Shown piece after piece: positions 40,401-47,536 of a stretch of DNA of 64,000 nucleotides. Source of the stretch: Haliclystus octoradiatus (lineage: Eukaryota; Cnidaria; Staurozoa; Stauromedusae; Haliclystidae); assembly GCA_916610825.1 (NCBI GenBank), contig OU744452.1, forward strand, positions 1,895,543 through 1,959,542, given 5' to 3'. The notes beneath the pieces were generated by a model. That model was given only the letters and a program-made list of their open reading frames with translations, did not search any database and was not told the origin of the DNA. The translations under genes and the position numbers were made by a program. Each line of letters opens with the position of its first letter. Within the stretch, counting starts at the first letter, position 1.

Positions 40401-43400
40401 GATTATAATTGTCTAAGTCTAAGTGGTTTTGAACGTTATTCCCATACTGAATAATAATAGGAAACAGCGTGTTATTTATACTAATTTACTACATTATTAA
40501 GCATAATCTATACCGGTAATTACTTACATTTGATGGTCTCAGCAAAACATTAATATACATTTACATCATTTTCTATAAGTATACAATTTAAATAGTTTAC
40601 ATCGGCATTTTTCTAACTATACAACTTCACGCAGTGCTCTATTTTTAACTAAATAACTATGATGTCATGTTTTATTTATTTATTTATTGAACACATTTAA
40701 CATTTTATCTAAACAATAATTTCTATGGAAATACATCTAATTACTTAATCAAAACAGCTTTTGCGGTGGAAAGTTTTCAAAAATTGTAACTTGTCTACAA
40801 AGTTTGTCAATTAAATCAGTAAATCTGGAGATAATTTTCAATCTCTGCTCATCCTCCAGCGACGCCATCGTAACCCATTGCTAGTACCCTGAAATCTGAA
40901 TTGACGATCTGAGGGCTTTGATCCACAAGCCGACCAGAGCTGTCTACTTTCCAGATGAAATATAGACATATGGTGTTAACTACTATTAGATGCTAAGCAA
41001 TAATACATGACCCATCTCAAAATGATAAATTACAACTATTTTGGTATGCTTATAATGGATTGAATGAAAACTCTAGTAGCAAACCGTAGTATTAAATCAA
41101 CTAGCTGACCAAATCTAAATATACTCACTTGGCGCTATTGTTCAGTCCGATAATGATCTCTTGTCTCAATAGTAAATAAAGCTGGCTCTCTTTGTTATTT
41201 TATTTTGTGTTCAGTGGTAGTCTAGTGAGACTCATATCCGTCTGGCTCTCATTTCACACGGAAGATGAGAAAATTTAACCTTATGGGTTTACCACCCAGG
41301 CATGTGACAAGACAAAGGAGTATACTGTAATAGACAGACCCTATTCTAATGTAAATGAATTGGGCCTGTGACGCCACTTTGCAGAGAAGGGCACTTTTTA
41401 GTACAGTCATTATATGAAATGACCCACCACTAATTGCAACAGAAATTATTTTTGCAGTTTCTAGTGTCAAATTTAATGCTTAATAACATATCAAAACTCT
41501 AGAAAAATCTTTTGCGGCGAAATAGCCCAATTGCGCAATTTAGTTTTAGTTACTTCTGTATTATAACTCATATAGCCTATACATAATACATTGAGTTGCT
41601 ACATAATCACAGAGATATTCACTACATGACAACAATCTTTTACAACCCGCAGATTGAACCTGAAGAAAATATAGAAAAATAAATGCAATGAAATAAAGTA
41701 TAATCAAATCTTGAAGACTTCTATTGTCTCAAAGAATATTCTAATCAGATTTTCTTCCTATTTAACAATTATTTATAATAAAGTTATGTATCGAGTACTT
41801 CGTTACTGTCTGTTTTCATTGAATTTGCACATGCTACACCTTTGCATTGTCCGCAAGCAGAAGTGCATGGAAGGTTGTGCCGCTTACAATTACATCGTTT
41901 AGTTGTACAACCAGTAGCGCAGGAACAACGAATTATTTTCAAAAGTTCATCAGGAGCTGGTGGTAAAGATGTTAGCACAGGTTTAAAATTATTGTCTTGA
42001 AGGTACCATCCCCAGTTGGAAGGGTCTATGTCGTCGTTATTCCTCCATACCTGAACTTGATAAAACACACGAAGGCTATGATTAGCAGCTGCTGCAGAAG
42101 TGGGGGGTAACTGTTTAGGATGCAGCTGTTTTGAAAGATGTGTGACTTTATCTGAATATTTATGATATCTCAAATCATTGAGACTGCATCCTTCTTCACC
42201 TCCATATAGACATGACACCATCCTTTCTCCAGCCTCTATAACTTGATCCATCGTACTGCTGCTAGTGTTAAAAATTAAGGATTGTTTGCGAAAATATGCG
42301 GACTTGATAAATAACTTCAGTGCAGCTGCCTTTCCAATTCCAAATAATCGCGACGTTGTGTCACATCCTAGAATAGCATGGATTAAAAGAATATTTTTAC
42401 AAATATCAGGTCCGAGTGAAGCAGTGACTGCCTTGATATCCCACGAACGGTGTATCTTAGTTTTTGCTTTTGGCTCAGGTCTAAAAAATAGTTTGTGTAA
42501 GTCAGGTGAAGAATAGTATAAAAGTAAAATGATAAGATCAGTGTCATCACCAACTAATGTAGTGTTCTTTAAACGTGCTCTTGCTATTGCGGTTTTGACA
42601 ATTAATAAATCTGCATCATCTGCAGCATGTGCTGTTACAATTCCATTGGCACTTAACTTTTGACTAAGCAATAATATAAAAGATTGTTTGTTTGAAGTGT
42701 TTGTTAAAAAAGACTCTTTTGTGACAGTGAGATGTGTTTCACCAGTAAAAATAATGTCAGTACACGATTTACCCTTTGCTCGGCTGCTTTGTGTTGCACC
42801 TTTGACAGAAGCACCATGATAGCCATCAAATACAACAAAAACGTCTGAATACTTTTTTTTGACATAATTAACATAAATATCACAGATCTCATTAAAGCTT
42901 GAGCCTCTTGACCATGGTAACTTATGCAGAAGAGCTCCTCCATCTAAAACATAACAAGAATCTGCGGGAACCTCACAACTTTTGACATTAGACATTTTCC
43001 AAATTGCATCAGCTAAAGCTGGCTTATCAGGCTTTCTCATTTGTAGATATTCATCAAATAGAGCAGGTGGGTAACTACATAACTCATATTTGAAGAGAGA
43101 CGACACATCCTCTTGAGTATTTGTGACAATTAGAAGGCGCTGGAAAAGAAGCTGTGGATCAACATAAACTAGTTCACCATCGATTTGAATTGAATATTTC
43201 GCACCAAGTGTTACAGCTTGATTCATTTTCTTGAATGTATAACTTTCAACTTCTTTATCTAACATACCATCAATAATCTTCTTACCTATACTCAACGATG
43301 AATCTACATTAACATTTGTATCCGCTACAACACCATTGACTATATTGCATAATGGTTTATCTTTTTCAAAGGGATTGTGTTCTTGTAATGCTTTGAGCAG

Positions 43401-47536: not shown

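Follow-up and report, generated by a model that had tools for sequence, protein, structure and literature searches.

A probable AcademX-type DNA transposon whose single open reading frame includes a FEN/XPG-like nuclease region

The Academ superfamily and its AcademX lineage are said to have been described by Kapitonov and Jurka in 2010 and by Kojima in 2020, and the nuclease of AcademX is, according to the latter account, reportedly XPG-like. The lineage is covered in two articles (PMC10045372, PMC4455052); according to the first, AcademX makes target-site duplications of 3 or 4 bp and AcademH those of 9 or 10 bp, the two being linked to an encoded nuclease and an encoded helicase, respectively (PMC10045372). 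Helicase domains are likewise noted for fungal Academ in a further report (PMC6416283). As regards size and abundance, 100 curated bivalve Academ consensus elements average 5,565 bp (PMC10294476), and published tables list Academ-1 with a share of 0.27-0.31% in clam (PMC8905726) and 0.17-0.23% in corals (PMC11370458). The element presented here fits AcademX because it is 5,597 bp long, has a candidate 4-bp target duplication and encodes a FEN/XPG-like nuclease region. We regard it, in a comparison made by description only, as quite probably a cut-and-paste DNA transposon of the Academ superfamily, belonging to the nuclease-bearing AcademX lineage or to a very close relation of it.

The window, i.e., the whole 64-kb stretch of DNA that was analysed, holds the entire transposon at positions 41399-46995 on the minus strand, and these limits are given by the precise beginning and end of its terminal inverted repeats together with a TTTT on both sides. 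The left repeat (41399-41526, plus strand, 128 bp) lies on the 3' side of the gene and the right repeat (46858-46995, minus strand, 138 bp) on its 5' side; both begin with TAGTACAGTCATT, the latter when read on the minus strand. Comparison of the region 41001-47500 with the window by blastn returned one inverted pair, 86% identical over 138 columns (E 2.4e-41), and when 41399-41530 and 46854-46995 were aligned globally, 120 of the 142 columns were identical, the others being gapped (10) or mismatched (12). The inner 105 nt of both repeats were also found in a separate comparison. The same blastn of 41001-47500, at E 1e-3, found no further copy of the element within the window.

Directly outside the left and right repeats stand two copies of TTTT, at 41395-41398 and 46996-46999. 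These form a direct repeat rather than a continuation of the inverted repeats, and the pair thus resembles a target duplication, since a longer inverted repeat would have made the two flanks complementary. By base composition, the chance of a 4-bp flank match is about 0.006, a value uncorrected for the choice of end or length. The TTTT pair is nonetheless a weak candidate for a target duplication, as it is a homopolymer seen in one copy of the element.

A sequence-only reading of this DNA had set the ends farther out, at 41364 and 47211, with inverted repeats of about 150 bp. The repeats themselves are real, at 128 and 138 bp, but had been placed 35 bp too far out on one side and 216 bp on the other. 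An outer inverted pair does exist (41364-41386 with 47185-47210), and its score of 24 was attained by no shuffle in a tight window and by six in a wider one (5,000 shuffles each); if it marked the true ends, the element would span 41364-47211 and carry a long insertion in its right arm. This arrangement is very unlikely, however, on several grounds. The pair is weak, its score having stayed below the null maximum of 29 in the first test of 1,000 shuffles, and it is separate from the terminal repeats, which are contiguous only from TAGTACAG inwards; moreover, the bases directly outside those repeats are the TTTT copies in direct orientation, and the outer pieces, when joined, fold as a single hairpin. 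On the strength of the repeat limits, the TTTT flanks and this fold, 41364 and 47211 were rejected as termini in favor of 41399 and 46995. The fold was obtained by joining 41364-41398 to 47000-47211, i.e., by removing the element and one TTTT. The resulting foldback, 247 nt long, has an energy of -80.2 kcal/mol, whereas 200 dinucleotide shuffles averaged -65.1 (z -3.3). When the left piece was replaced by random 35-mers, none of 400 folded as well as the real one; on its own, the right piece already reaches -58.4, and folding as strong as that of the joined flanks occurred in 3 of 319 natural-sequence windows. Because the joined flanks fold back on themselves, the element appears to sit in an older hairpin or MITE-like repeat, which it probably split on insertion, and of which 41364-41398 would be the left piece and 47000-47211 the right piece.

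Within the 41399-46995 element, a single ORF of 1,454 amino acids runs from an ATG start without internal stop at 41784-46148 on the minus strand, confirming the 1454-codon frame that had been claimed from the letters; the attribute 'intronless', given to the element at the same time, holds in the sense that one ORF spans most of it. Fifty first-order Markov copies of the window contained no open run longer than 193 codons, against the 1,454 observed, and the GC content of the ORF at its three codon positions (0.44, 0.37 and 0.26) differs as coding DNA would show. It is highly improbable that we are dealing with a host gene arisen by domestication, or with a copy that keeps its ORF but cannot move, rather than with an element still mobile today: a single copy was seen in the 64-kb window, and the terminal repeats differ at 12 of their 132 ungapped columns, so that the copy may not be recent, but 1,454 unbroken codons between well-preserved terminal repeats argue for a mobile transposon instead.

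Taken as a whole, the 1,454-residue protein reaches the cut-off of no family in Pfam or NCBIfam, no family is listed for it in PHROGs or PADLOC, and no helicase family is listed for it by Pfam. A phmmer search of the PDB returned an E of 0.16 at best; the matches to EssB, Doc and galactose-1-phosphate uridylyltransferase were rejected, as were the matches to the NUP160_helical_2, Kazal_1 and YciI-like families, all of which were sub-threshold.

Several other ORFs were observed in the window. One that is open at the window edge (2-2122, minus strand) has domains for an aspartyl protease and a reverse transcriptase, like an LTR-type retroelement; a caspase-domain ORF (5026-5568, plus strand) matches Peptidase_C14 with an E of 3.5e-33; an unbroken ORF of 1,082 amino acids with endonuclease and reverse transcriptase domains (11124-14372, plus strand) is like a non-LTR retrotransposon; and 29453-30322 (minus strand) is a possible reverse transcriptase fragment, with a match to RVT_1 below the cut-off (E 0.0016). 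On account of the caspase-domain ORF and the non-LTR retrotransposon, the host is taken for an animal.

The region of the transposon protein that bears most on its classification comprises residues 1060-1300 (42249-42971, minus strand), which had been read as a FEN/XPG-like nuclease. It presents the acidic motifs of that family in order, namely D1069, VFDG (1106-1109), DDAD (1177-1180) and DDTD (1201-1204), followed by GCD (1261-1263) and GIG (1270-1272), which together make up the G-x-D...G-[IVL]-G pattern of the helix-two-turn-helix. The order of acidic motifs is the same in human FEN1 and yeast Rad27, two of the FEN1/XPG (Rad2) nucleases, and in these two and the present protein alike, the first Gly of GIG/GVG falls exactly 7 residues past the Asp of G-[SC]-D. 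A pattern of this motif order matched all three proteins, whereas residues 1040-1330, shuffled 200,000 times, never matched it in either its strict or its loose form; it is to be noted that both sides were known when its gap ranges were set and D was accepted in place of E, and that its first D is loosely placed. An HMM built from the two proteins FEN1 and Rad27 gave the segment 8.7 bits, ranking it first of the 272 sequences reported from a set of 500 shuffles and eight further segments of the ORF. In a larger control, in which the segment had an E of 0.23, this score was reached by one of 5,000 shuffles (9.1 bits) and by none of 410 further ORFs taken from the window and loci. Lastly, hhalign placed residues 1210-1283 on residues 181-251 of Rad27 with 32% identity over 71 columns, at an E of 0.013 that refers to one comparison and a probability of only 3.4%.

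The likeness has its bounds. FEN1 carries E-x-E where the present protein carries aspartates, its overall similarity to the FEN1/XPG group is near the noise limit, and the module here belongs to a 1,454-residue transposon protein, unlike those nucleases. Pfam listed no XPG model, the sole family given for the region being NYN_YacP, below its cut-off (E 0.13-0.15). The reading of residues 1060-1300 as a FEN/XPG-like nuclease is supported at the level of sequence motifs, by their order and by the HMM, but not at the level of structure, where a single-sequence AlphaFold2 model of residues 1038-1424 had a mean pLDDT of 32.5.

Residues 1-170 (45639-46148, minus strand) contain paired Cys/His clusters (C7, C10, H25, H52, C55, H59 and C60; then C99, C102, H163 and C166), and the first 180 residues have 14 Cys and His in total. 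The N-terminal Cys/His positions suggested earlier are borne out, while their nature as DNA-binding zinc fingers is presumed. For residues 1-200, Pfam gave two matches that fall short of their cut-offs, one to NUP160_helical_2 (E 0.012) and one to Kazal_1 (E 0.11). At the other end, residues 1408-1440 (41829-41927, minus strand) form a putative CXC-like zinc cluster, as judged from cysteine spacing and a sub-threshold match to preSET_CXC. Nine cysteines fall in this stretch, within the last 54 residues, with a CxC...CxC pattern; the binomial p is 2e-6 versus the rest of the protein for a stretch picked by eye. The CXC cluster that had been proposed is seen here as a CXC-like cysteine pattern; preSET_CXC, at an E of 1.9 with the whole protein, gave the fragment an E of 0.045 and 14.7 bits versus a cut-off of 23.3.

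Between the N-terminal clusters and the nuclease region, residues 400-920 (43389-44951, minus strand) are the presumed location of a DDE transposase core. The core itself would lie near residues 440-770, the candidate catalytic residues being D447 (in LDGHD), D592 (in TFDQP) and E768 (in ERTGN), which we read as a putative triad from the appearance of the motifs and by analogy with relatives. The single family listed for residues 400-920 is Pfam DUF6589, matched by residues 607-805 at an E of 0.049 and 12.8 bits, the cut-off being 27. In view of this sub-threshold match to the presumed core, DUF6589 might itself be a transposase family, and the match gives a clue to the nature of this Pfam family; no mention of DUF6589 was found in the literature searched.

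That residues 400-920 match nothing above cut-off would also suit a transposon of another, undescribed superfamily, having acquired a FEN/XPG module of its own in convergence with AcademX, as would the fact that the likeness to AcademX is drawn from description. This reading is rather unlikely, since the duplication length, the encoded nuclease and the element length all agree with the descriptions of AcademX or Academ. The assignment to AcademX, made by description, is filed as probable.

If the element is an AcademX-like transposon with these regions, its movement may be envisaged as follows. The terminal repeats would be bound by the zinc clusters at the N-terminus, with a possible contribution from the CXC cluster. 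The DDE core at about residues 440-770 would excise the element and join it to the target DNA with a 4-bp stagger, and such staggered joining would leave the TTTT duplication. For the FEN/XPG module, we envisage the trimming of a flapped or branched intermediate, either at the excised ends or at the gap once it is filled. As judged from motifs, one protein appears to unite a cut-and-paste transposase with a flap nuclease of the DNA-repair type. A further proposition is that the single-chain fusion of zinc fingers, a DUF6589-related DDE transposase, an all-aspartate FEN/XPG nuclease and a CXC DNA-binding cluster represents a separate lineage from AcademX as described, one whose end processing requires the flap nuclease; we consider this unlikely. 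With its exact ends and unbroken ORF, the present copy is a natural point of departure for work on this transposon type, in which a transposase is paired with a repair-type nuclease; to our knowledge, the role of the nuclease in the transposition of such elements has been untested to date.

Relatives of the protein were sought with patterns in which [L] denotes any codon whose second base is T. GCDTTSx[L]FG[L]GK and HAxxGCDTTSxxxxxGK found none in viral and genome collections covering viruses and prokaryotes, and GCDTTSxxxG[L]GK and TFDQP[L]xxKA (5 loci) found none in the viral collection. A related-locus search of viral contigs matched two stretches, neither of which was a relative. By tblastn, the protein had no match at E 1 in the ten loci retrieved and none at E 0.1 in the phage and plasmid collections. 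A pattern search for viral FEN1 genes yielded four loci, whose matching frames were not FEN1-like by eye. In the literature that the search could reach, most of the primary Academ literature lying beyond it, no description was found of an Academ element with a CXC cluster or of such a copy.

Overall, the element looks like a member of the known nuclease-bearing Academ group and not a new kind. The earlier suggestion that it was 'Academ-like' is upheld in that it fits the description of AcademX, with its duplication of 3 or 4 bp and its nuclease, and the length of Academ, both known here by description only; the alternative offered with it, a 'new type', is unneeded because a nuclease has already been reported for the AcademX lineage. 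The features shared with AcademX, again by description only, are the terminal inverted repeats, a candidate duplication of 4 bp, which as a homopolymer in a single copy agrees weakly with the reported 3 or 4 bp, and an encoded nuclease in place of a helicase, as recognized at the sequence level. The length of 5,597 bp is close to the 5,565 bp averaged by the curated bivalve Academ elements. AcademH would belong to the same superfamily, if the element is indeed Academ, but has a helicase and duplications of 9 or 10 bp, whereas the present element has a FEN/XPG-like module, no helicase family listed by Pfam and a candidate duplication of 4 bp. Finally, the Kolobok lineages KolobokE, KolobokD and KolobokP resemble it in being DDE transposons with an added nuclease; their nucleases, however, are of the PD-D/ExK, DEDDh and His-Me types and not FEN/XPG (PMC9587614).
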